Positions 987 to 21,416 of a stretch of 21,416 nt of DNA are shown piece by piece; the stretch's first letter is position 1; each line of letters begins with the position of its first letter. The stretch is from the IMG/VR virus record IMGVR_UViG_3300037843_000174, positions 1 to 21,416 of that record; one strand, 5' to 3'. Source of the stretch: a virus. The translations under genes were made by a program, and so were the position numbers. A model generated the notes under the pieces. The model had not been told where the DNA came from, searched no databases, and saw only the letters and a list, made by a program, of their open reading frames with translations.

Positions 987-1222
987 AACAGGAATCCAAT
1001 ACCTGCAAGAACTGCTGGGCAGCAGCCGGCACGCGACGGTACACGGCAGATCGTACCGTCAAACGTCTTTGCCGCAAGAGCGGGCTAATGGTCGTTGTCA
1101 CACAGCGTGGGGTAGGCTCTTGCGAAGCATGGCAACCGCGACCGGCCAACTCGGACATCGCCAAGCGGGCAAATTCGGATGCAAACCACCGTATCAGCGG
1201 AATCAAAGAGGAGAAATTGTGA
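983..1222 (+). CDS. Small cysteine-containing basic protein
   Basis: This 79-aa protein starts at the ATG at 983, overlapping the previous stop by 4 bases. It has a CKNC pair near residue 8, Cys near residue 30 and another Cys near residue 47, so a zinc site is possible. The rest is basic (many Arg and Lys). Its stop overlaps the GTG start of the large helicase-methyltransferase gene (GTGA), so the two are probably translationally coupled. No family recognised. Confidence 0.6.
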   Translation: MKQESNTCKNCWAAAGTRRYTADRTVKRLCRKSGLMVVVTQRGVGSCEAWQPRPANSDIAKRANSDANHRISGIKEEKL

Positions 1223-4200
1223 GCACGACCGTAGACCTTGCCGCCTATCAGAAGTTCCTTGAAGATAAGGTGTCTATCTCTAAGGACGCCGGCTGCGAAT
1301 GCAAGCTGGAAGACATTCACCCACTTCTGAAGCCGCACCAGAAAGCAATCGTCCAATGGGCAGTCCAAGGAGGACGCCGGGCAATCTTCGCTAACTTTGG
1401 CCTCGGCAAAAGTCTGATCCAGCTGGAAATCTGCCGCATCATCACCAAGCACCTCGGCCCGCAGTCGAAAGCCTTGATCGTGTGTCCCCTCGGCGTCCGC
1501 CAGGAGTTCGCCCACGATGCCGCCATGATCGGACTGCGAACGTGCTTCATTCAGCACATGGACGATCTTCAAAGCCAGGTCAACCAGAAGGAACTGGTAG
1601 ACCTTGGCACGCCGATCTACGTCACGAACTACGAATCGGTACGCAACGGAAAACTCGACCCGCGCGGATTCGATGTAGTGAGCCTGGACGAGGCGGCCAT
1701 CCTGCGCGGTTTTGGATCGACGCTGACCTTTCGTAAGCTCATGGGCCTGTTTGAGGGAACAAGCACATTCCGCTTTGTGGCGACGGCGACCCCGGACCCG
1801 AACGAATACATCGAGCTACTGGCCTACGCGGACTGGCTTGGCGTCATGCCAACAGGCGAGGCTAAGACCAGGTTCTTCAAGCGTGACTCGACTAAGGCCG
1901 ACCATCTGACGTTGCACGCCAACAAGGCGGAAGAGTTCTGGCTATGGGTCAGTACTTGGGCGACGTTCCTGTCCACGCCGAGCGATCTTGGCTACTCGGA
2001 CGAGGGCTACATCCTTCCGCCAATGACGGTGAATTGGCACGAACTGCCGACAAACAACGACACGGCCGCCATCGACCGCGACGGGCAGAAGAAGCTATGG
2101 AAGGACGCCGCCGCCGGTCTATCGCAGGCCGCCGCCGAGAAACGGGACAGCTTGGCGGATCGTATCGCCAAGATGAAGGCGATCATCGCGGAATCTCCGA
2201 ACGAGCACTTCCTGATTTGGTGCGACCTGGAAAAGGAACGGAAAGCGATTCACAAGGCCCTGCCGGAATGCACATCGGTCTACGGCACACAGAAATGGGA
2301 GGAACGCGAGGCCGCCGTCATGGGATTCGCTAACGGTACGATTCCGTATCTATCCTCAAAGGCATCCATGCTGGGGCAGGGGTGCAACTTCCAGAAGCAT
2401 TGCCACCGGGCTATCTTCGTCGGCATCGGCTACAAGTTCGCCTTGTTCGCCCAGGCCATGCACCGCATCTATAGGTTCCTACAAGAGCAGCCTGTCACCA
2501 TCGACATCATCTACACCGAGGCTGAATCCGGCATCCGCGACGTGCTTGAAGCCAAGTGGGAACGGCACAAGAAGCAACTCAGCAAGATGGCCGAGATCAT
2601 CCGCGAGCACGGCCTGGCGTCCGCTTCCAAGATCAAGGCCCTGCAACAAGGCATGGGCATCAAGCGGGTGGAGGAAACCGGAGAGAACTGGCGACTCGTC
2701 AATAACGATACCGTGCTGGAAACGGCAGCCATGAAGGAAGACACGGTATCGTTAATTATCACCAGTATTCCTTTCTCATTCCAATATCAGTACTCCGCAA
2801 ACTACGCGGACTTCGGAGAGAGTGAAACCAACGACGCCTTTTGGGCACAGATGGACTTTCTGACGCCGAACCTGCTCCGCGTGCTTCGCCCCGGCCGAGT
2901 TTGCTGCATCCACGTCAAGGACAGGATCGTACCGGGCGGATTGACCGGCCTTGGATTCCAGACGCTTCATCCATTCCACGCGGAAGCCATTGCCCACTAC
3001 ATGAAGCATGGATTCGCCTTCCTGGGGATGAAGACCGTCACGACGGACGTTGTGCGGGAGAACAACCAGACATACCGGCTAGGCTGGTCCGAACAATGCA
3101 AGGACGGGAGCCGCATGGGTTGCGGAGTGCCGGAATACGTCCTGTTGTTCCGCAAGCCGCCGAGCGATCTATCGAACGGCTACGCGGACGATCCTGTTCT
3201 CAAGAGCAAGCCGGACACGGAGTTCCCGGACGGGCATATCGGCCCCTACGATTACGACGGCGGCAAGGTAGTGCCGGGTACGGGCTACTCGCGGGCGCGC
3301 TGGCAACTTGACGCCCACGGCTACATGCGAAGCAGCGGCAACCGCTTTCTGACGCCGGAAGATATGGACAGCCTGCCGCACGCACAAATCTACCGCCGCT
3401 GGAAAGAAGAGTGCCTTTCGACGGTCTATGACTTCGAGCACCACGTCAACTTAGGCGAGTTGATGGAACGCGACAAGCGGTTGCCATCTACGTTCATGGT
3501 CATGCCGCCGCACAGCCCGCACCCGGACGTGTGGAGCGACGTTGCACGGATGCGGACGCTGAACATGCTCCAAGAGAGAACCGGGCGTGTCATGCACCTC
3601 TGCGTTGCCGTTGGGTCTCTTGTTCTCACGCGGCAGCATGGGTACATCCCAATCGAAACCGTCGTTACTGGAGACGAGGTTTTGACCCACATGGGCCGTT
3701 GGAGAAAAGTAATCGTCAGCCAGAGTACTGGCATACGTGAAACCGTGGAATTGCTGGCACAAGGCGTTCCCGGCTTGAAGTTGACGCCAGACCACAAGCT
3801 ATGGACTCGCAAGGTGAGACAGATTCCTTGGGCGAGAGCCAAACGGCGTCTTGACGCGATCAAGCGTGATCCTCTCTGGGTTGAAGCATCTGAGACGGTG
3901 GGCCATTTCGTCAATCTCAAATTACCTCCAGTCGAGACTCCGCACAACGACAGCATGCATCATTGGTGGATTGTCGGACGCTGGCTTGCCGATGGTCACA
4001 AGGGAGGCCACGAAGGACGCGACGGTCAGGTGTTGAGCTACACGATCAGTTGTGGCTACCATGAGACTGAGTATCTTGTTGAGACACTTGGCGTCCACGC
4101 GGGAGTTCCGCACGATGTTGGCACAGGAATGCAAATCACTCTGCGGGATGAAGATTTCGCAATCCGAAGCATCCTAGCGAAGTGCGGAAGAGGGGCGGCT

Positions 4201-4923
4201 AATAAGCATCTCCCACCGGAAGCATTTACGCTTCCACCCGCCCACGCCAAGATTCTACTTGATGGATACCTGTCAGGGGACGGACATTATTTAGACGAGC
4301 GGAAACGCTTCACAGGTAGTAGCGTTTCCAAGGCGTTACTTCTCGGAATGGCCATGCTTGCCCAGCGGGTCTACGGGGCTATCGCCAGCATCTACCGTGG
4401 GCGACCGGAACGGGAAGCTACGATCCAAGGAAGGACTGTTCACTGTCAGCAGGATTACGCATTCTGCTTCGATGATCCAACTGATAGGCAACTCAGTAGG
4501 GTAACAGTTCCATTTGTCGTCGAAGATGGGGCATGGAAGACCGTTCGATCCGCCGAACCTTCGGAATGCGTCGAAACATGGAATCTACGCGTGGAAGAGG
4601 ACGAGAGCTATACGGTGGAAGGCTGTATTGTCAAGAACTGTCCCCTGCAGGAGGATATCATCAAGCGTTTGATTACGCAATTCACGATGCCAGGGGAAGT
4701 GGTCTATGATCCTTTCGACGGCATCGGGAGTGTGGCGTATTGGGCCGTGAAGCTCAAGCGGTTCGGCATGGGTTGCGAACTGAACGCCAGCTATCACGCC
4801 GACGCCGTGATCTACTGCACGCAGGCGGCATTGAACCGCGACGTTCCGATGCTGTTCGATGCCTTGGAAGAGGAAAAAGAAATCGCCGTGTCCGACTCAG
4901 GCGACCACGGCGGGGAGGAATGA
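1219..4923 (+). CDS. SNF2-type helicase / beta-class DNA methyltransferase fusion, intein-containing
   Basis: The precursor is 1234 aa from a GTG at 1219, chosen because it overlaps the previous stop and follows GAGGAG. The N-terminal half is a superfamily 2 helicase: Walker A FGLGKS at residues 60-65, Walker B-like DEAA at 157-160, TATPDPN (motif III-like) near residue 193, and QAMHRIYR (motif VI-like) near residue 412. The second half is a DNA amino-methyltransferase in beta-class order: TSIPF (motif IV) at 515-519, then a C-terminal AdoMet-binding motif I, DPFDGIGS, from residue 1164. Such fusions occur in phages and probably modify phage DNA against restriction; the specificity is unknown. 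A 346-aa intein (separate entry) interrupts the HLCPLQ motif. Splicing would leave 888 aa. The Ile in TSIPF, in place of the usual Pro, is to my knowledge a variant seen in phage relatives. Confidence 0.9.
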   Translation: MSTTVDLAAYQKFLEDKVSISKDAGCECKLEDIHPLLKPHQKAIVQWAVQGGRRAIFANFGLGKSLIQLEICRIITKHLGPQSKALIVCPLGVRQEFAHDAAMIGLRTCFIQHMDDLQSQVNQKELVDLGTPIYVTNYESVRNGKLDPRGFDVVSLDEAAILRGFGSTLTFRKLMGLFEGTSTFRFVATATPDPNEYIELLAYADWLGVMPTGEAKTRFFKRDSTKADHLTLHANKAEEFWLWVSTWATFLSTPSDLGYSDEGYILPPMTVNWHELPTNNDTAAIDRDGQKKLWKDAAAGLSQAAAEKRDSLADRIAKMKAIIAESPNEHFLIWCDLEKERKAIHKALPECTSVYGTQKWEEREAAVMGFANGTIPYLSSKASMLGQGCNFQKHCHRAIFVGIGYKFALFAQAMHRIYRFLQEQPVTIDIIYTEAESGIRDVLEAKWERHKKQLSKMAEIIREHGLASASKIKALQQGMGIKRVEETGENWRLVNNDTVLETAAMKEDTVSLIITSIPFSFQYQYSANYADFGESETNDAFWAQMDFLTPNLLRVLRPGRVCCIHVKDRIVPGGLTGLGFQTLHPFHAEAIAHYMKHGFAFLGMKTVTTDVVRENNQTYRLGWSEQCKDGSRMGCGVPEYVLLFRKPPSDLSNGYADDPVLKSKPDTEFPDGHIGPYDYDGGKVVPGTGYSRARWQLDAHGYMRSSGNRFLTPEDMDSLPHAQIYRRWKEECLSTVYDFEHHVNLGELMERDKRLPSTFMVMPPHSPHPDVWSDVARMRTLNMLQERTGRVMHLCVAVGSLVLTRQHGYIPIETVVTGDEVLTHMGRWRKVIVSQSTGIRETVELLAQGVPGLKLTPDHKLWTRKVRQIPWARAKRRLDAIKRDPLWVEASETVGHFVNLKLPPVETPHNDSMHHWWIVGRWLADGHKGGHEGRDGQVLSYTISCGYHETEYLVETLGVHAGVPHDVGTGMQITLRDEDFAIRSILAKCGRGAANKHLPPEAFTLPPAHAKILLDGYLSGDGHYLDERKRFTGSSVSKALLLGMAMLAQRVYGAIASIYRGRPEREATIQGRTVHCQQDYAFCFDDPTDRQLSRVTVPFVVEDGAWKTVRSAEPSECVETWNLRVEEDESYTVEGCIVKNCPLQEDIIKRLITQFTMPGEVVYDPFDGIGSVAYWAVKLKRFGMGCELNASYHADAVIYCTQAALNRDVPMLFDALEEEKEIAVSDSGDHGGEE
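3601..4638 (+). other. Intein with LAGLIDADG homing-endonuclease domain
   Basis: This in-frame 346-aa insertion is residues 795-1140 of the helicase-methyltransferase. It begins with Cys795 in CVAVGSLV (block A) and has TPDH with His859 (block B). Two LAGLIDADG-type motifs follow, WIVGRWLADG near residue 917 and LDGYLSGDGH near residue 1014, each with its acidic residue. It ends IVKN, followed by Cys at +1. Removing it joins MHL to CPLQEDI, restoring a motif typical of these methylases, which fixes both splice sites. The penultimate residue is Lys1139 rather than the common His; such exceptions are known in active inteins. The endonuclease would cleave intein-free alleles and spread the element. 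All visible key residues suggest it is active. Confidence 0.92.
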
Positions 4924-7743: not shown

Positions 7744-9162
7744 ATGAAATTCTTTTCCCTGTTCGCAATCGTGCTTTGCTGCAACGTGGCCGGAAGTCTG
7801 GCCCAGCAGCCGGCCCCCGATCATTCGCTCATCGTCAATGGCCAATGGATGCTCGTCCCGGTCCTTCCGACGCCGCCGCTTGCCGCGCCTTGCGGATGCA
7901 AGACTTCCTCTGACGACAATGCCGACATGGCCGAGGCCGTCGCCCGCGGCTTCGGTTCTCGACTGGCCATCGGGCCATTCAAGGAGGCAACCACTGCCGT
8001 CCGCGCATGGCGCGCAAGTGACGGGAACGACCTAAAGAAGTTGCAGGCACGACTTGATCGGACGCCTCGGTTCACGGAGTGTCAGAAGGCCACAATGGCC
8101 TTGATCGCCCTGGAAATGACCAACTCGTTTTCTCCGGGTACGATCCCGCCCCAGGTAATTCAACTGGCGATTCAACTCCAGGCTGCGGCTTGCTCGGCTC
8201 CTCCTGTTCCGACACTCGCACCGATCGGCAAGATTCCGCCCGTTCCGAAGAAGCACGCTACCGGCCTGATCATCCTTCCCGAGAAGACCCGAAACGCCTT
8301 GCACGTTAGGGACGCCTTGACCCACAAGGCATTCCACTCCAAACACGGCGCGATCACGATTCCAAGTAGCCTTGACCTTCGCTCCGGTTGCCCGGCAATC
8401 GAAGACCAGGACGGCGTGGGGACGTGTCACGACCATTCAGGCGTCGATACGGTCTGTTGCGCCAACATTAAGGACGGAAACTTGACGATTTCGCAACCGC
8501 TATCCGTGCAGTACATCGTGGACCTAGATCCGAACGGTGACGGCACTTGCGACGGCGGTGATGCAACCACGATCTTCCAATGGCTCAAACAAGGCAACGG
8601 TATTCCTACCGTCCAATCCTACGGGCCGGAAGATAATGCTTGCAATCAGGGTTGCCAACTCAGTGGTACGGCGTCGGGATTTACGATCCAAGATTGGGGA
8701 TATGCCGGTACGGTCACTGGCCCTGCCGACGTGCAATCTGTCGAGGAATCGCTTGTGACCTACGGCGTGACGAGCGTGTGCATAGGCTGCCCCGACGACT
8801 TCATGAACTACAGCGGCGGAATCTACGTCGGAGACCTGTCGAGTGGCATCGACCATCAAGTCAGTCTCGTCGGCTACAAGATCGACCCCACGGTTTCCGG
8901 CGGCGGATACTTCATCCTCCGCAACTCATGGGGCACCGGCTGGGGCGAGAAAGGATACGCCCGCGTGGCATTCTCCTGCAATGCGACGACCGAGTCCATG
9001 TGGGCTACGGCCAAGAAGGGACAGACCACGGTGGTTCAACCGTTTTCAAGCCCGACACCTTCGGATAGGGTGTTGAAGCTCTATGAGATGGGTAGGAAGA
9101 ACCCGACCCTCGCAAAGAAGGCACTCAAGGCCGCAGAGGACGTTTTCCAGAACGCTCCTTGA
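7744..9162 (+). CDS. Secreted papain-family (C1A) cysteine protease
   Basis: This 472-aa protein starts at the ATG at 7744 behind TTGGAGAAA. Residues 1-20 form a signal peptide (cleavage after SLA). A region of about 190 residues follows that could be a propeptide. The papain-like domain starts at LDLRSGCPAIEDQDG. The oxyanion Gln222 and nucleophile Cys228 (GTCHDHSG) have the six-residue spacing of papain Q19/C25. His371 (DHQVSLVGY) and Asn394 (RNSWGTGWGEKGY) complete the triad. The Trp usually after the catalytic Cys is His here. C1A proteases cut proteins; in a phage this is unusual. Possible roles are envelope or S-layer degradation, an exported virulence-type factor, or virion processing. 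The target is unknown. Confidence 0.88.
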   Translation: MKFFSLFAIVLCCNVAGSLAQQPAPDHSLIVNGQWMLVPVLPTPPLAAPCGCKTSSDDNADMAEAVARGFGSRLAIGPFKEATTAVRAWRASDGNDLKKLQARLDRTPRFTECQKATMALIALEMTNSFSPGTIPPQVIQLAIQLQAAACSAPPVPTLAPIGKIPPVPKKHATGLIILPEKTRNALHVRDALTHKAFHSKHGAITIPSSLDLRSGCPAIEDQDGVGTCHDHSGVDTVCCANIKDGNLTISQPLSVQYIVDLDPNGDGTCDGGDATTIFQWLKQGNGIPTVQSYGPEDNACNQGCQLSGTASGFTIQDWGYAGTVTGPADVQSVEESLVTYGVTSVCIGCPDDFMNYSGGIYVGDLSSGIDHQVSLVGYKIDPTVSGGGYFILRNSWGTGWGEKGYARVAFSCNATTESMWATAKKGQTTVVQPFSSPTPSDRVLKLYEMGRKNPTLAKKALKAAEDVFQNAP

Positions 9163-10302: not shown

Positions 10303-10985
10303 AAACAGCCACTCCGAAAACCAAACGTCGCAAACGGCCAGTCAACGGCCTTTCGACCGAACTCATGGACGCCATGCTCCGTGAGTATACGGAGTGGCAG
10401 TCCCGCGTCCAAGCCGAAGACCCGAATCTACCGGCAACTCTATCAGCGGACGACCTCTACTTCCTTGAATCAGGCCGGATGCCGGTAGACCAGGTTCAAT
10501 CTCTCCGCAAGCGAATCTTTGCCGATCTCGTCAGTCGGGGGTTTTCGGAAGCGGACGTGTGCCAGCGGCTTGTCTTGTCGCATAAGAGCTATTGCAAACT
10601 TGCACTTCGCAGCTTCGGCGTAGACGATCCGAAGCTCGTTCGGGCGCAATGCTCCGCAAGGAACCTTGAAAGGCAAGGGAAGATCAAGGACGAAATCAAT
10701 CGAATGGACGAAATGAGGCAGCAGCGCATAGGGGGAGACCGTAGCTTCACGACTGCCGAACGGGATTCCTACTTCAAACTCATCAAACTCGCCAACGACC
10801 TCGACGAATCGTACCGCAAGTTGCACGCCGCCGATGCACCGGAACAAGTTGAAGTCAAAGAGATCAAACAGTACGACATCACCTTGAACGTCCGGGGCAC
10901 GCGAGAGGAGCTATCCGACATCCTGGAAGGCCAAGTGATCGACGTGCCAGCCCTGCCACCACCGGAGGTTTCCGATGGTAGCTGA
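10299..10985 (+). CDS. Probable terminase small subunit; start codon uncertain (possible AUA)
   Basis: The frame ends at 10985, overlapping the large terminase start, and encodes a basic N-terminus (KTKRRKRP), an HTH-like segment (GFSEADVCQRLVLSHKSYCKLAL) and a Lys/Glu-rich helical region, as in DNA-recognising small terminases. Position directly before terL supports this. The start is unclear. The frame is open back to 10095, but that overlaps two membrane protein genes. At 10299 an ATA lies exactly where the same junction sequence at 5443-5459 has ATG, behind AAGGAACCGAAG. ATG at 10365 has no Shine-Dalgarno and would drop the basic tail; TTG at 10224 is another option. From 10299 the protein is 228 aa. 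Confidence 0.68.
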   Translation: METATPKTKRRKRPVNGLSTELMDAMLREYTEWQSRVQAEDPNLPATLSADDLYFLESGRMPVDQVQSLRKRIFADLVSRGFSEADVCQRLVLSHKSYCKLALRSFGVDDPKLVRAQCSARNLERQGKIKDEINRMDEMRQQRIGGDRSFTTAERDSYFKLIKLANDLDESYRKLHAADAPEQVEVKEIKQYDITLNVRGTREELSDILEGQVIDVPALPPPEVSDGS

Positions 10986-12306
10986 AAGGAAATCAGTCGA
11001 GACTTATCCAAAGCAGAAGGCATTCTGCTTGGCAGATTACTTCTCCGTGGCAATGACAGGCGGCGTGGGTAGCGGAAAAAGTCGTAGTGGCGCGATTCGG
11101 TTGCTAACTCGGTCCAAGCCGCATTGTCACTACATGGTTGTGGCCCCGACATACAAGATGATGGATAAGTCTACGTTCTCGATCTTCCAGGAATACGCGG
11201 AACAATTCGGCCTATGGAGACGCGGCTGCTACAACGAAACGAAGAAGACCGCACAACTCGCCAATGGGGCAACCTACTATTTCTGTTCAGCGGAAGACCC
11301 TGATGGATTGCGGGGACCGAGCCTCAGTGAACTATGGGGCGATGAAATGCAGGGAACCAAGGAGGAAGCCTACACGATATTGAAGGGGCGACTCCGCGAA
11401 GGCGGCAAGCGTGGCAAGAGCCAATGGACGTTTACCCCAGGCAGCCCCGACCACTGGACGAGCAAGCACTTCATTAAGAATTGCACGATTGAGGCATACG
11501 AGCAGATAAATACTAAATTCGGCCCGGCCAGGATCAAGTGCCTGAAAAACCCGGAAGGCGACAGCGTTTTCTTCCGGGCGTCCCTCAAAGAGAATACATT
11601 CATAGAGCCGTCATTCTACGCCTCGCTTCTACGCGACTACGCTGCTTCACCCATGCGTATCCTACGCGAGCTTGAAGGCGAGTGCGTCTACATGGAAGGG
11701 GCCGAGTGGCAGGCGGAATACTTCGATAACCTCTGGTTCAAAGAATGGCCGCCAATGGCACAGGGAGGAATCCGCGTCGTGTCGCTCGATTCGTCGCTTG
11801 GCAAGGAAGGCAAGGGCGACGACTACGCGGCCTACGTCAAGTGCCTATGGCAGAACGGGATCATGTACCTTGACGCCGATATGAGGAAGCGAGAGGACTC
11901 ATCCAAGATATGCCACAACGGCGTGGAAATTTACCGCGACTTCAACCCGCATTACTTCGTGGTTGAGGAAGAAATGGGGATGAATCTGCTCATCGCGGAA
12001 ATGCACAAGATTGCCGACGAACAGAAAGTAGTAATGGCTATCACGCCAATGGGGACGGACAAGATTCCAAAGGAGCAACGGATTCGCCGGTTGACGCCGT
12101 ATGTTTCTCGCAGGCAGTTTCGCTTCAAGGCCAATTCGCCGGGGGCGAAATTGCTAGTCGAGCAGATGATGGCTTTCCCACTTGCTGAAAATGACGATGG
12201 GGTAGACTCCCTGGAATACGCGGTTCGCTGTCTTGTTCTCGCAACCACGGGACAGATTTTGCGTCCACGACTGATAGCCTACAATATGATGCAGCAAGCG
12301 GTATAA
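10975..12306 (+). CDS. terL: Terminase large subunit
   Basis: This 443-aa protein starts at the ATG at 10975, overlapping the small terminase by 11 bases, with GGAGG upstream. The ATPase domain has Walker A GGVGSGKS at residues 29-36 and a Walker B-like WGDEMQ near residue 122. The C-terminal RNase H-like nuclease shows its acidic residues in VVSLDSS, in FVVEEEMG and in DDGVDSLEY near the end. TerL docks on the portal, pumps phage DNA into the prohead and cuts the concatemer. The length is at the short end of the family. The last codons overlap a TATAAT that precedes the first CRISPR-like repeat. Confidence 0.92.
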   Translation: MVAERKSVETYPKQKAFCLADYFSVAMTGGVGSGKSRSGAIRLLTRSKPHCHYMVVAPTYKMMDKSTFSIFQEYAEQFGLWRRGCYNETKKTAQLANGATYYFCSAEDPDGLRGPSLSELWGDEMQGTKEEAYTILKGRLREGGKRGKSQWTFTPGSPDHWTSKHFIKNCTIEAYEQINTKFGPARIKCLKNPEGDSVFFRASLKENTFIEPSFYASLLRDYAASPMRILRELEGECVYMEGAEWQAEYFDNLWFKEWPPMAQGGIRVVSLDSSLGKEGKGDDYAAYVKCLWQNGIMYLDADMRKREDSSKICHNGVEIYRDFNPHYFVVEEEMGMNLLIAEMHKIADEQKVVMAITPMGTDKIPKEQRIRRLTPYVSRRQFRFKANSPGAKLLVEQMMAFPLAENDDGVDSLEYAVRCLVLATTGQILRPRLIAYNMMQQAV

Positions 12307-12307
12307 T
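12302..12307 (+). promoter_or_regulatory. Perfect -10 hexamer ahead of the first CRISPR-like repeat
   Basis: TATAAT spans the terL stop codon. Six to seven bases downstream is the expected start site, near 12314, which is the first base of the solitary repeat. I see no convincing -35 hexamer at 16-18 bases upstream and no extended -10 TG. This is therefore only a candidate promoter for a repeat-initiated RNA. Confidence 0.4.
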
Positions 12308-12313
12308 TGCACA

Positions 12314-12345
12314 GTCGCCCGCCGCGTGCGGGCGTGGATTGAAAC
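12314..12345 (+). repeat. Solitary type I-C CRISPR-like repeat unit, copy 1
   Basis: The 32-base unit is GT, then the arm CGCCCGC, loop CGCGT, arm GCGGGCG, then the 11-base tail TGGATTGAAAC. The arms form a perfect 7-bp stem. Size, hairpin and tail match type I-C CRISPR repeats, whose RNAs are cut by Cas5d at the 3' base of the stem to leave an 11-nt 5' handle. No second repeat follows at array spacing, and there are no cas genes. It lies between terL and the portal gene, 46 bases before the portal ATG, on the same strand. I read it as a phage-borne solitary repeat. It is not a terminator because no U-tract follows. Confidence 0.9.
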
Positions 12346-12391
12346 CACCACGGGCAACGGCCTACGCAGCAATGGGACAGGCGGTGTAACT

Positions 12392-14686
12392 ATGAACATC
12401 CTATCTCGCATTACGGAAGTCTTTCGCGGAAAGCCGGAACGACCGGCCCCGCCGCCGGTATCCTTCGTCACACCGGAAGTATTCCGGGACATTAACCGTT
12501 TGAAGCAGGAATGCACCTGGCTTTCCCGCCTCTTGGAAGACGACATCACCGGCGAAATAGGCTTCACCAACGGGCTTGATGGTACGGACTTCTGGGGCCA
12601 GCAATCGCAAGTAGGCGACTTCCGCGACGGGAGCTACCGATTCGCTTACGATATGTGCATGTTCCGACCGTGCTACGGGGCCGCGTTCTACATCAATGAG
12701 GTTCAGCACCGTCGCATCAGGGCCAAGTCTAGGGCTTTCTGTTCGATCAATCCCTACTCGCACGGAATCCTTCATTCGCTGAAAACGCACGTCATCGGCA
12801 AGGGCCACAACTGGACGGCCGGGTGGCGGAATCCAAACTCCAAGGGTCCAGAGGATATGCTGACGCGAGTGCAAGCGGACCTGGACGAGTTCTACGCCGC
12901 CGGCTACCGCGAACACCAGAAAGAATCCATCGAACGCCGCAGCCGCGACGGTGAATTCTTCCGCCGCTTCAAGGTTCAAGGGGGACGCTTGCGGGTGTCT
13001 TTCGTTGAACCGCTGAACGTCTGGACGCCGCCGGGATCATCGGAGACTACCAACTGCTACTTCGGTATCCAATTCGACGGCGACGATTACGAGAACCCAC
13101 AAGGCTACTACATTCGCCGCACGAACTATCTCGGTGCACAGACGAAAGCACTCGAAGGATGGCAGCGGATGGTCTCTGCCGACGAAATCCAGCACGTCAA
13201 AAACAACGTCGATAAGGGGACACCACGCGGAATCCCGGACACCTACTGGACACAGGCCCGGCTAGAGCAATCCTTGAAGACCTTGAAGGCATCGGGCAAC
13301 CTCGTCCAATTCAGGAACAAGGTCGGCTTGATCCGGCAGCATGTTGACGCGCTAGCCGGAAGCATCCAGCCGCTTCTGTCGCAGAATGCCGTCACGACGA
13401 TCCACACGCCGACAGGACGGCAGGATACGCTTTGGGATTTGCCAGACGCAGCAGTTGTCGATGCCTCGAATCAGACGCAGTACACCTTCCCGTCTCAGAA
13501 TCTTGAGATCAAGGAAACCATAGCGGCGATCCAGGCCGAGCTTCAATCCGTCGCTACGTCGATGGGTTTGGCCGATTACATGGTGTCAGGTACATTAGGG
13601 GCAGGTGCTTCCTACAGTGCGAGCATGGTAGCAGAAGGGCCGGTAGTCAAGACATTTGAGGATCATCAGTACGATACCATCGACGCCGATACTTTGGTCG
13701 TTGCAAAGATCATCGACGTAGGCATTGAGTACGGCCGCTACCCGGAGGAAGCACGCGAACTAGTCCGCGTGGAAATGAGGGGACCGCCACTTGGACGACT
13801 TGGAATCCAGGCCGCCCAGGAGATGCAGATCGAAAGCCAATGCGGCATAACGTCCAAGCGTACATGGCGAATGCTTATAGGCCGTGACGACGAAACCGAG
13901 ACGGCGAATCTTGCCGCTGAGAAGGAAGCTGAAGCAAAGACGGAAGCCGAGCTTGCGAAGAAGTACCCGCAGCCTATGCCGACGCCGGGAGTGAACGGCA
14001 ACGGCAAGCCTGGCACAAACGGCCAGCAGAATGGAACCGGACCCAGGAACCGCATGACGCCAAATGCGCGGCCGTTCTCTGCCGATCAAGAGGGACGGCA
14101 GATGCAGCGGGCCAGCGGGGCCACAGTCGAGGAAGCGTTCGACACGTGGTTCCAATCGCGGTTACAAGAGAGTAGTCACGACCCGGCAGGGCACGACAAG
14201 CCTACCGAATCAGAATTAGCAATGGCGACGGTTTGGATTACCGACGATTTCCTTGCGAAAATCAAGTCCGAAATTCTTTCCCTGCCACGAATGAAAGAGC
14301 CTATCGACCCGGCAACGGCAGGGGAGTACGAACCTGGCGTAAAAGGCTTACGGCTTGGCGTCGTCGATAACCAGACTGTATGGGCGGTTGACATGCGGGA
14401 GATGTCTGTCCGCCACGATTCCGCCGACACGATTGTAGCGGGCAACTCGGAACGCTGGCCTTTCTTGCCACCTGAGATCATCTTCGTGGATTGGTCCTTT
14501 GTCGCCTATGATCGTAATTGCGACCTATTGCACGAATGCTGCGAGTTTGTTATGATGCGGGATGGGAAGTTCAGCTACAGCCTCGCTCATAAACTATCCA
14601 ACTACTTTGAACGCGAGTGGCTTTTTGTCTTGCGGCCTGAATTGAAAGTCTTGGCTGAAGCAGTAGCGGCTACGGAAACAGAATGA
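12392..14686 (+). CDS. Portal protein with C-terminal HExxE-type extension
   Basis: This 764-aa protein is read from the ATG at 12392; the frame is open back to a GTG inside the CRISPR-like repeat, but that start has no support. It follows terL and contains portal-like segments in residues 1-540 (for example RRSRDGEFFRRF, VKNNVDKGTPRGIPDTYW, and GLADYMVSGTLGAGASYS), so it is probably a lambda-type portal, the dodecameric DNA gate. A low-complexity linker rich in Pro, Gly and Asn (about residues 530-560) leads to an added domain of about 150 aa. That domain ends with LLHECCEFVMM (His714, Glu715, Glu718) and SLAHKLSNYFERE, a putative metal-site pattern that I have seen as separate small phage proteins. 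The function of the extension is unknown. Confidence 0.85.
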   Translation: MNILSRITEVFRGKPERPAPPPVSFVTPEVFRDINRLKQECTWLSRLLEDDITGEIGFTNGLDGTDFWGQQSQVGDFRDGSYRFAYDMCMFRPCYGAAFYINEVQHRRIRAKSRAFCSINPYSHGILHSLKTHVIGKGHNWTAGWRNPNSKGPEDMLTRVQADLDEFYAAGYREHQKESIERRSRDGEFFRRFKVQGGRLRVSFVEPLNVWTPPGSSETTNCYFGIQFDGDDYENPQGYYIRRTNYLGAQTKALEGWQRMVSADEIQHVKNNVDKGTPRGIPDTYWTQARLEQSLKTLKASGNLVQFRNKVGLIRQHVDALAGSIQPLLSQNAVTTIHTPTGRQDTLWDLPDAAVVDASNQTQYTFPSQNLEIKETIAAIQAELQSVATSMGLADYMVSGTLGAGASYSASMVAEGPVVKTFEDHQYDTIDADTLVVAKIIDVGIEYGRYPEEARELVRVEMRGPPLGRLGIQAAQEMQIESQCGITSKRTWRMLIGRDDETETANLAAEKEAEAKTEAELAKKYPQPMPTPGVNGNGKPGTNGQQNGTGPRNRMTPNARPFSADQEGRQMQRASGATVEEAFDTWFQSRLQESSHDPAGHDKPTESELAMATVWITDDFLAKIKSEILSLPRMKEPIDPATAGEYEPGVKGLRLGVVDNQTVWAVDMREMSVRHDSADTIVAGNSERWPFLPPEIIFVDWSFVAYDRNCDLLHECCEFVMMRDGKFSYSLAHKLSNYFEREWLFVLRPELKVLAEAVAATETE

Positions 14687-14856
14687 CACGCACTATTCAG
14701 ACTTCTGGGATATACCGGATTCGTAACACGGTAAACAACCGTGCGTACTACGGAAGTTCCGTGAACATGCACCAGCGATGGCTGCGGCACCGAACCGACT
14801 TAATTCCGCTTGGCCGCCGTGCCTTCCTTGAACGCCGTGGAGTGCTTCACGCATGA
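14683..14856 (+). CDS. Mini GIY-YIG-like protein (57 aa)
   Basis: The ATG at 14683 overlaps the portal stop (ATGA), and the TGA overlaps the next ATG. Residues 8-33 follow the start of a GIY-YIG nuclease domain: SGIYRIRNTVNNRAYYGSS then QRWLRH, that is GIY, YYG in place of YIG, and the catalytic-type Arg. The domain normally continues for about 50 more residues to a metal-binding Glu; here it ends after GVLHA. It is therefore either a degenerate remnant of a homing nuclease or a miniature derivative. It is unlikely to cut DNA by itself. Confidence 0.65.
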   Translation: MTRTIQTSGIYRIRNTVNNRAYYGSSVNMHQRWLRHRTDLIPLGRRAFLERRGVLHA

Positions 14857-15080
14857 CCATCCAGCCCGGCAGTCTCTACCAAGTTTCGATATCTGACCGT
14901 GGAAGCGGAACGGTCAAGGCTGTTCGCACGACCGGCGACGGCATGGTATGCAGCATCATCGTGCATGGGAGGTTCAAGAACCGCGTGCCGAACAGTCAGG
15001 TCAGGATCGACGGCGACCATTTATGTTTCCGCCCAGAAGGCAAGGGAGTTACCGTGAAACCCTTGAAATTGGAACCTTAA
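14853..15080 (+). CDS. Small hypothetical beta-rich protein
   Basis: This 75-aa protein starts at the ATG at 14853, overlapping the previous stop (ATGA). Alternating polar and hydrophobic residues (SLYQVSISDRGSGTVKAV, then MVCSIIVHGRF) suggest a small beta-barrel. It ends with a Lys/Pro-rich tail. It has no motif that I recognise. Its position between portal and head genes suggests a virion assembly or accessory role, but this is only inference. Confidence 0.6.
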   Translation: MTIQPGSLYQVSISDRGSGTVKAVRTTGDGMVCSIIVHGRFKNRVPNSQVRIDGDHLCFRPEGKGVTVKPLKLEP

Positions 15081-15097
15081 CACGAAAGGAAAGTGAA

Positions 15098-15478
15098 GTG
15101 CGTTTTGAACCGCCCTTAGACAGCGTGATCGTTGAGCGTGAGCTTGTACACAAGAGTCCCGAAGGCATCACGTACCCGCAACCGCTTGTCCAGTGGTACG
15201 GCCGCATCGTCGCCGCTGGACCGGGGATGCTTCGGACGATGCAAGCAGTGGTACGTTTAATCGACCCGCCAGGCTGCGATCTTGACCGTTTCCCCATGCA
15301 GTACAAGGTGGGCGACCTGGTTATCTGCCCGCCCGGCATGACGGCGTTTCCAGAGGAGATTCCGGTCCCGAAGTCCGGCAACACCCGCCTGTTCGTGTGC
15401 AGTGAGCGGCAGTTGCTTGCCAAGGTCATCTTTGAGGACGGAGATAAGCAACCAGCCAGCAACGGAAAGGCGGGGTAG
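15098..15478 (+). CDS. GroES-like co-chaperonin
   Basis: The 126-aa product starts at a GTG at 15098 behind AAAGGAAA. It has the order of a GroES chain: PLDSVIVERE at the N-terminus, a middle loop (SPEGITYPQP), GRIVAAGPG near residue 40, YKVGDLVICPPG near residue 70, and a final beta strand LFVCSERQLLAKV. GroES caps GroEL for protein folding in the cytoplasm. Phage T4 gp31 is a GroES replacement needed to fold the capsid protein. Location between portal and capsid genes fits the same job here. It is longer than bacterial GroES (about 95 aa), with extra residues at the C-terminus and in the middle. Confidence 0.78.
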   Translation: MRFEPPLDSVIVERELVHKSPEGITYPQPLVQWYGRIVAAGPGMLRTMQAVVRLIDPPGCDLDRFPMQYKVGDLVICPPGMTAFPEEIPVPKSGNTRLFVCSERQLLAKVIFEDGDKQPASNGKAG

Positions 15479-15530
15479 GCTGTGAGTGTGGCGTCCCCAT
15501 TGAGCAGATTCACCCGGAGGTCAAGGAGTA

Positions 15531-15932
15531 ATGGCGAAGAATCGAATGGAAGAACTTCTCTCACGGCCATTGCGCACCGCCGACGAATTGCATGCCGCCG
15601 AGGCAGGCGAACAGTCTGGCGGCGTGCCGTGGGCTGAACCATCGGAACAAGAGGGGCAGACTCCCAATCCGACTCCGCTACGGGAATCTGAAGACCGGCT
15701 ATACCGTTTCCCAGAGCCGCCAGCGGCAATCACGCCTATCCTGTCCACGAACAACCGCGAGAAGTTGGAACGTGCCAAGGCTCATATTGAGAAGCTATTT
15801 CTACTCGCGGCGGCAGGATTGATTGAAGGCGTTCACTTCTATGGCAAGACGAGTATTGAAGTGTCTTGGCAGGATGGTTCCGCCCAGCAGATAAGCACGT
15901 CAATCTCTGCCAAGGACCAAATGCTGCAATAG
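15531..15932 (+). CDS. Hypothetical protein
   Basis: This 133-aa protein starts at the ATG at 15531 behind GGAGG and AAGGAG. The N-terminal half is polar and probably disordered (Glu, Pro, Gly and Ser rich). The C-terminal half has a helix (NREKLERAKAHIEKLFLLAAA) and a short beta-rich part (VHFYGKTSIEVSWQDGSAQQ). I recognise no family. It ends 60 bases upstream of the second CRISPR-like repeat. A head or DNA-accessory role is only a guess from location. Confidence 0.65.
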   Translation: MAKNRMEELLSRPLRTADELHAAEAGEQSGGVPWAEPSEQEGQTPNPTPLRESEDRLYRFPEPPAAITPILSTNNREKLERAKAHIEKLFLLAAAGLIEGVHFYGKTSIEVSWQDGSAQQISTSISAKDQMLQ

Positions 15933-15991
15933 CGAACAATGGCCAATGACCTAGTTCTATCGAAGATCAATTCTGCCCGTGGTGTTCTTGC

Positions 15992-16023
15992 GTCGCCCGT
16001 CGTGTGCGGGCGTGGATTGAAAC
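15992..16023 (+). repeat. Solitary type I-C CRISPR-like repeat unit, copy 2
   Basis: The unit is GT, arm CGCCCGT, loop CGTGT, arm GCGGGCG, tail TGGATTGAAAC, again 32 bases. It differs from copy 1 at two positions, both C to T: the last base of the 5' arm, which becomes a G-U wobble so the stem survives, and one loop base. The 11-base handle is identical. No array neighbour exists. It stands 14 bases before the ATG of the sigma factor gene, so its hairpin would lie in that gene's leader and could affect its translation. Confidence 0.9.
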
Positions 16024-16037
16024 AATAAGGGGACAGG

Positions 16038-16718
16038 ATGCCCACAGCTACACGGAATATCGACACGGAAGCCTCACTTTGGCGGGCCTATTGGCATGGA
16101 CGCTGCGATGATGCGTTCAATAGGCTCGTCAACTTCTATCTGCCGTGGGTGAAGCAACTAGCCTTCAATCAGGCCGCCAAGTTGCCTGATAGCGTCGATT
16201 GGCAAGACCTGTTTCAAGACGGCTCGATAGCCCTATTGGATTGCATCCGACGATTCGACAAGCGGCGTGGCTTGAAGTTTAAGACGTTCGCCATGCGACG
16301 GATCGCAGGGTCGTTCTCTGACGGGCTGCGAAATATGGATTGGGTTCCTAGACTCGTCCGACAACGGAAAGAACCCGTCGTTGTCATGCGTCAGGAGAAG
16401 ATTCTCTACAACGAAAACGCCGACGAGAAACAGGATGCTTCCCACCCAAAAGTATACGACCGCAAGACAATGGAGTTACGGGACGAAGTGCGGCGTGCCT
16501 TGCGTGGATTGCGAAAGAACCAGCGATTATCCGTGATTCTCTACTTTTTGGAAGGTCTAAGCATGAAGGAAGCCGCGGAATCCATCGGCGTTTCCGAGTC
16601 CAGAGTCAGCCAGATAATCAGTGAAACCATCGTATTTATCCGTTCCAGGGAGAGAATTTCCGTCCAAGACCACGGAAATATAGGGAATCATCGAAAATCT
16701 GCTATTGCGATTCCATGA
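16038..16718 (+). CDS. Phage-encoded sigma-28-like (FliA/WhiG type) sigma factor
   Basis: This 226-aa protein starts at the ATG at 16038. The leader GGGGACAGG is close to the start. Region 2 (about residues 10-105) follows the FliA/SigB type: LWRAYWHGRCDDAF, LVNFYLPWVKQLA, LPDSVDWQDLFQDGSIALLD, RFDKRRGLKFKTFAMRRI and DWVPRLVRQR (separate fragments). Region 4 (about residues 155-210) has LRKNQRLSVILYFLEGLSMK and the recognition helix ESIGVSESRVSQI. The stretch between is short and polar, so region 3 seems missing. It would redirect host RNA polymerase to phage promoters, probably late ones. Its gene is the only clear transcription regulator among the head genes. It is preceded by a CRISPR-like repeat and followed by a terminator. 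Confidence 0.88.
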   Translation: MPTATRNIDTEASLWRAYWHGRCDDAFNRLVNFYLPWVKQLAFNQAAKLPDSVDWQDLFQDGSIALLDCIRRFDKRRGLKFKTFAMRRIAGSFSDGLRNMDWVPRLVRQRKEPVVVMRQEKILYNENADEKQDASHPKVYDRKTMELRDEVRRALRGLRKNQRLSVILYFLEGLSMKEAAESIGVSESRVSQIISETIVFIRSRERISVQDHGNIGNHRKSAIAIP

Positions 16719-20410: not shown

Positions 20411-21416
20411 ATGAAACCCGCAATCGACATCGGCCGCATGTTCCGCATGGCCGTCCAACAGGAAGCGGCGGAACGCGGATACCGCGGCCGGTTGAGCGAA
20501 GAGTTTATCGAGGAAACGGAAACCTTTCACGGCTTCCGCGAAAACTCTCTCGCCTTGAACCGGCACCAGCACCAGAACATTCGCATTCCCGGCAAGTCGC
20601 CCCAAGTCCTCTTGGAGGATATGGGTGGCGTCAGCATCCGCGAGATCGCAGAAGAGACGATCTTGGAACGCGACGGTAGCCCGATCGGACGCAGCCGCGT
20701 CCTCGAACTGTTCCACCCGGCGGACCAGACTCGCCTCTTGGAACGCGAGATCGAACGATCCATGCTCGCCGGCCGGTTGCGTGAAGCCGGGGCGGAAACG
20801 ACCGCAATGGACTTCACGATGTTCCAAATGCTCGTCGGCCAACTGCTCATCAATTCGACCCTCAAGGGATTCGAGCACGAGGACTTCATTCTGTCCAAGG
20901 CAGCCGGCATCTACCCCACGGAGTTTGTCACCGGCGAAGTCGTTCCCGGCATTTCGACGCCGCTCGTCAAGGACACGATGGGGCCAACTCCCGGTCAGAC
21001 CGGGCCCGTGAAGAATACGCTGCTCCATAAGCCTGGCGAGACGTACCGGCAGGCATCGGCTGCGGAGAACTACATCCGCTTGCCGGCCACCGAGGAACAC
21101 GGCCTCATCATCGGACTCGACAAGACGGCCGTGTATGCAGACCGCACGGGCATGGTCTCCAAGATCGCGGGCGACATCGGGGAGGAACTGGCAGCCGAGA
21201 AGGAGATCAACGGCCTCGACATGCTCATCGGCGTTACGAATCTGATTGCACCGTACACCGAGAAGTATGCGTGGGACGACGCGGACATCTCCATCGACCC
21301 GTATCAGGCGGGCAACACGGCGTTGAACAATGGTACGGGACAGTTGGCGAAGACCTACCCAAATCGCCCATTCCCATTCGTCAACGAAGTGGACAACAAC
21401 GCCCTGAACAACTGGC
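20411..21416 (+). CDS. Probable HK97-fold major capsid protein, 3'-truncated by window edge
   Basis: The frame runs from the ATG at 20411 (CAGGAG upstream) to the last base of the window without a stop; 335 residues are visible. The N-terminal 130 residues are charged and helical (several Glu/Arg-rich stretches), like a delta-domain or N-arm that is removed on maturation. The later part includes EDFILSKAAGIYPTEFV, a long loop with TPGQTGPVKNT, and helices such as KIAGDIGEELAAEKEIN, which fit a spine-helix region. Order after the scaffold/protease and decoration-like genes, plus length, make the major capsid protein the best call. No signature motif proves it. Confidence 0.72.
   Translation, partial: MKPAIDIGRMFRMAVQQEAAERGYRGRLSEEFIEETETFHGFRENSLALNRHQHQNIRIPGKSPQVLLEDMGGVSIREIAEETILERDGSPIGRSRVLELFHPADQTRLLEREIERSMLAGRLREAGAETTAMDFTMFQMLVGQLLINSTLKGFEHEDFILSKAAGIYPTEFVTGEVVPGISTPLVKDTMGPTPGQTGPVKNTLLHKPGETYRQASAAENYIRLPATEEHGLIIGLDKTAVYADRTGMVSKIAGDIGEELAAEKEINGLDMLIGVTNLIAPYTEKYAWDDADISIDPYQAGNTALNNGTGQLAKTYPNRPFPFVNEVDNNALNNW

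Follow-up and report, generated by a model that had tools for sequence, protein, structure and literature searches.

Solitary CRISPR repeats carried by viruses act as RNA anti-CRISPRs, termed Racrs (Camara-Wilpert et al., PMC10651486). The Thiocystis violascens prophage repeat RacrIF1 is solitary and intergenic and mimics the hairpin of its cognate repeat; the repeat nuclease of the host cuts it, and it ties up Cas6f and Cas7f. RacrIC1, from a Bifidobacterium pseudocatenulatum prophage, inhibits type I-C systems (PMC10651486). The type I-C nuclease Cas5d (Cas5c) cuts at the hairpin base of the repeat, which gives an 11-nt handle, and remains bound to the product that contains the hairpin (PMC3890593). 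Viral CRISPR mini-arrays consist of repeats of host type in viral genomes that lack cas genes, and contain one or two spacers, most of which target related viruses (PMC11656645). With the locus described here, a phage of little-studied, probably planctomycete hosts provides a further candidate type I-C RNA anti-CRISPR, a new example of this described counter-defence class and not a new kind of system. As with RacrIC1, the type I-C repeat is solitary and no cas genes accompany it in the viral genome, and its proposed expression in a longer transcript with a phage gene would parallel that of RacrIC1, but RacrIC1 follows acrIC5 and is experimentally proven, whereas here two candidate copies precede the portal and sigma-factor genes with no recognised acr gene. 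With RacrIF1 it shares the intergenic position and the mimicry of the cognate hairpin, whereas RacrIF1 is of type I-F, is processed by Cas6f and has its own strong promoter. Compared with the mini-arrays, the host-type repeats and the lack of cas genes are the same, but the two repeats of this phage lie 3.7 kb from each other, separated by whole genes, and a spacer with a viral target between repeats, by which mini-arrays are recognised, was not found. The published solitary-repeat survey included IMG/VR3 (PMC10651486), and this phage may therefore figure in it already.

The window, by which we mean the whole stretch of DNA analysed, is one IMG/VR virus record of 21,416 bases. Copy 1 of the repeat, GTCGCCCGCCGCGTGCGGGCGTGGATTGAAAC, occupies positions 12314-12345 of the plus strand and has the typical type I-C features, namely a length of 32 nt, a hairpin and a GTGGATTGAAAC end. 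It follows the stop codon of the terminase large subunit gene (terL, 10975-12306, plus strand; PF04466, phrog_2) after 7 nt and precedes the portal protein gene (12392-14686, plus strand; PF05136, phrog_21), whose ATG is at 12392. The portal leader behind the repeat (12346-12391, plus strand) measures 46 nt, in agreement with the roughly 46 bases of the original prediction. The predicted fold pairs 12316-12322 with 12328-12334 around a loop at 12323-12327, and, with a cut at the base of the hairpin as made by Cas5d (PMC3890593), the predicted handle is the 11-nt UGGAUUGAAAC at 12335-12345. The isolated copy is predicted to fold as a hairpin of -14 kcal/mol; with 34 nt of leader added the predicted fold loses the hairpin and with 55 nt it is kept, and in such models the flanking RNA may compete with it.

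Copy 2 lies 3,678 bases away, at 15992-16023 of the plus strand, and matches copy 1 at 30 of 32 positions, differing by C to T changes at repeat positions 9 and 12. These substitutions spare the pairing, position 9 still pairing as G-U and position 12 lying in the loop, and copy 2 alone is also predicted to fold into a 7-pair hairpin (stem 15994-16000 with 16006-16012, handle 16013-16023). Upstream of it is a gene without a family in Pfam, PHROGs or PADLOC (15531-15932, plus strand), and 4 nt 3' of it is AAGGGG (16027-16032, plus strand), from its sequence the likely ribosome-binding site of the next gene, whose ATG stands 14 nt past the end of the repeat. This gene (16038-16718, plus strand) had been predicted to encode a sigma factor and indeed belongs to the sigma-70 family by PF04542, PF04545 and phrog_351. 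Allowing up to three mismatches, the repeat pattern is found at these two sites only in the window and at none in 100 shuffles. Genes were called with our own codon-based script, which replaced a coarser length-based caller; by these calls both copies are intergenic and on the coding strand, in the gaps 12307-12391 and 15933-16037, and because only 4.5% of the 32-nt slots in the window are gene-free, the probability of both being intergenic by chance is about 0.002. As asked of a viral solitary repeat unit (SRU), they show at least 90% identity over at least 90% of the length of a known repeat, no repeat or partial repeat within 100 bp and an intergenic position, and, as asked of a type I-C Racr, both copies alone are predicted to take the cognate repeat hairpin fold. 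No second or partial repeat was found near either copy, the 200-nt flanks scoring at background. An Rfam scan of the window gave no match, and no anti-defence genes adjoining the copies were recognised with Pfam and PADLOC.

Upon scanning a genome collection with the exact pattern, we retrieved three contigs (L003, L004 and L005), all with tandem repeats at normal spacing. The L003 array, in a metagenome-assembled genome (MAG) labelled Bacillota, matches copy 1 exactly in six repeats and has one further, degenerate repeat, and in L004 and L005, both from Planctomycetota MAGs, the array repeat is one base from either phage copy. On the L005 contig, cas3, cas5c, cas8c, cas7c, cas4, cas1c and cas2 precede the array, and the L004 contig carries cas7c, cas1c and cas2. 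With type I-C cas genes alongside the L004 and L005 arrays, the phage repeats are equal to, or one base off, type I-C array repeats; the CRISPR-like repeat predicted at 12314-12345 is thus present, and its type I-C assignment is strongly supported. Among 392 Planctomycetota genomes, the closest repeat occurs in one and a version with two mismatches in two others. In the viral collection, the exact pattern occurs in the same phage species and in one different virus of 64.8 kb (L007). The spacers of the three arrays do not match the phage. From the repeat likeness, the hosts of the phage are probably Planctomycetota bacteria.

Next, we surveyed solitary type I-C repeats across viruses. Scanning IMG/VR with the core GTCGC-N13-GCGTGGATTGAAAC gave at least 119 stretches, and the survey sample comprises the 57 distinct solitary copies with enough flank among the matches listed; counts are approximate because genes were called with our own script. 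Among these listed matches, 42 of the 57 are intergenic, and where the neighbouring genes are co-directional the repeat lies on their strand in 31 cases and on the opposite strand in 5 (p = 1.3e-5). The repeats are somewhat nearer the upstream stop codon than expected (p = 0.011, matches listed). An unrelated phage (L111) carries a solitary type I-C repeat at 1651-1682, 1 nt past the terL stop with portal downstream, and another virus (L040) has one 65 nt ahead of portal. Many viral type I-C repeats, the survey suggests, share the direction of the ordinary phage genes between which they lie, and packaging genes are among these. Furthermore, free stem positions covary strongly in the listed matches, with 34 double-change cells versus 12 in shuffles, a covariation that may be inherited from host repeats.

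Regarding transcription, a possible -10 box, TATAAT at 12302-12307 (plus strand), overlaps the terL stop codon and is the sole exact TATAAT of the window on either strand, with about 2.3 expected; a start 7 nt past it falls at 12314, the first base of the repeat. The hexamer includes the terL stop TAA and is therefore partly constrained by coding. The -35 had been called poor, and rightly so, as no hexamer spaced 16-18 nt from the box agrees at more than three of six positions, and scanning 12000-16400 for sigma-70 promoters gave none. Copy 2 has no -10 box at the spacing of copy 1, and among the matches listed a TATAAT-like hexamer 5-6 nt upstream accompanies 3 of the 42 intergenic repeats, copy 1 included; a common -10 rule for viral solitary type I-C repeats was rejected, there being no build-up at that spacing among the 42. 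The predicted TATAAT-driven start at 12314 therefore keeps its exact hexamer and right spacing and loses a usable -35, a counterpart at copy 2 and a general rule, and an RNA start at the first base of copy 1 is, from the sequence, plausible but unproven. The active part of RacrIF1 lies in the RNA upstream of the cut (PMC10651486), and a transcript that begins exactly at 12314 would not contain such a part; if the same is valid for type I-C, read-through from terL would be the better decoy.

The locus is positioned as other viral solitary repeats are and is probably functional, and we consider it likely that the two solitary repeats mimic the host type I-C repeat and act as an RNA decoy, a candidate Racr whose transcription, cutting and inhibitory activity we infer. 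Both copies would be carried in phage mRNAs, copy 2 in the sigma-gene leader and copy 1 across the junction of terL and portal, with its TATAAT perhaps giving a second source of copy 1 RNA. Host Cas5c would recognise the hairpin together with the single strand that follows, cut at the hairpin base, with predicted cuts after 12334 in copy 1 and after 16012 in copy 2, and remain on the hairpin product. The upstream RNA would then keep the hairpin and the portal and sigma mRNAs would carry the handle; once exposed, the handle and the neighbouring RNA could nucleate incomplete Cas assemblies, so that Cas5c, and possibly Cas7c and Cas8c, would be drawn off real crRNAs. Speaking for the decoy are the identity or one-base difference to array repeats, in two MAGs beside type I-C cas genes, the intergenic placement on the coding strand, the pairing-neutral changes, the retention in a second assembly, the viral survey and the published Racrs. 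Against it stands the position of copy 1 among late genes, from which expression could come late for counter-defence, except where early RNA is supplied by read-through or by a promoter of its own. Also against it are the predicted loss of the copy 1 hairpin with 34 nt of leader and two points that weaken the probable host link: the spacers of the three arrays do not match the phage, and the exact copy 1 repeat lies in a Bacillota-labelled MAG.

The placement in leaders also fits a Cas-responsive switch, in which cutting or binding by Cas5c at the portal and sigma leaders would alter expression in type I-C hosts. Both copies lie in short coding-strand leaders, copy 2 close to its start codon, and among the matches listed 18 of the 42 intergenic viral repeats stand at most 100 nt before a same-strand start with no terminator between. 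We consider the switch unlikely, however, as the viral repeats do not hug the downstream start codon, 13 lying within 50 nt versus 13.6 expected by random placement in the same gaps (matches listed), and at least five copies are followed by a terminator-like stem of their own. The latter indicates that stand-alone and mRNA-borne forms both seem to exist. A dual role, in which leader repeats serve as decoy and sensor in one RNA and Cas5c cutting tunes portal and sigma expression by the type I-C status of the host, strikes us as equally improbable. The locus nonetheless raises the question of whether phage mRNAs serve as CRISPR decoys, and whether Cas5c cutting affects the genes behind.

Alternatively, the repeats could be leftovers of a CRISPR array, either a relic without function or a mobile scrap, to which we assign a similarly low probability. 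The locus is carried by only one phage species in our data: searches for relatives through terL, portal and the proteins at 20411 and 16820 returned the same species and one 31% terL fragment only, and among named phages terL matches were weak and portal matches absent. A second assembly of the same phage, IMGVR_UViG_3300018019_000025, is 99.97% identical and has both copies unchanged. A relic sits poorly with two intact copies in coding-strand gaps that differ in pairing-neutral ways, and with the same arrangement in many other viruses.

Still less probable is the guide originally proposed, in which a dedicated small RNA from 12314 would become a crRNA-like molecule whose spacer, 12346-12379 within the portal leader, is aimed at another phage or the host. 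The well-spaced TATAAT, unique in the window as an exact match, speaks for it, as does the length of that segment, about equal to that of the spacers in arrays with this repeat. However, no downstream repeat follows 12346-12379 to close the guide, and the region 12290-12400 has no match in 50,697 phage records. A search for targets next to a type I-C PAM was likewise fruitless: across the window, the sister phage and the host cas regions, the one full-seed match next to TTC agrees at 15 of 34 positions overall, which is not meaningful. At copy 2 the counterpart of the spacer runs into the sigma gene, leaving no room for one, and the pseudo-spacer is accordingly not upheld. Least credible of all is a decoy integration site, in which a leader end and repeat captured from a host array would draw off spacer insertion by Cas1-Cas2 or serve as a site of recombination with host arrays. 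The 20 nt before copy 1 (12294-12313) do resemble the L004 array leader end, about 0.02% of window positions reaching such a score, but this likeness, after several comparisons, with two gaps and post hoc, is suggestive only, being seen with one of the host leaders compared. Copy 2 shows nothing similar, and neither copy adjoins a spacer or duplicated repeat.

Finally, several further features were observed. Among the matches listed, AAAC directly follows 9 of the 42 intergenic viral repeats (L036, L037, L042, L046, L056, L059, L061, L062 and L097), versus 0 of 58 array spacer starts in the same scan; it extends the handle's own AAAC and is a possible signature of decoy repeats. Several dispersed solitary type I-C repeats per phage were seen in L041, in L057 and in the contig IMGVR_UViG_3300031673_000079 (L042 and L046), and within one phage these are either identical or have quite different stems, as if for different hosts. 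Elsewhere in the window, positions 1219-4923 encode a 1,234-residue protein with matches to an SNF2-like helicase and an N6/N4 DNA methylase, and the stretch between the matches suggests, on visual inspection, an intein that interrupts the methylase. Additionally, the 472-residue protein encoded at 7744-9162 resembles, by eye, a secreted papain-type cysteine peptidase.
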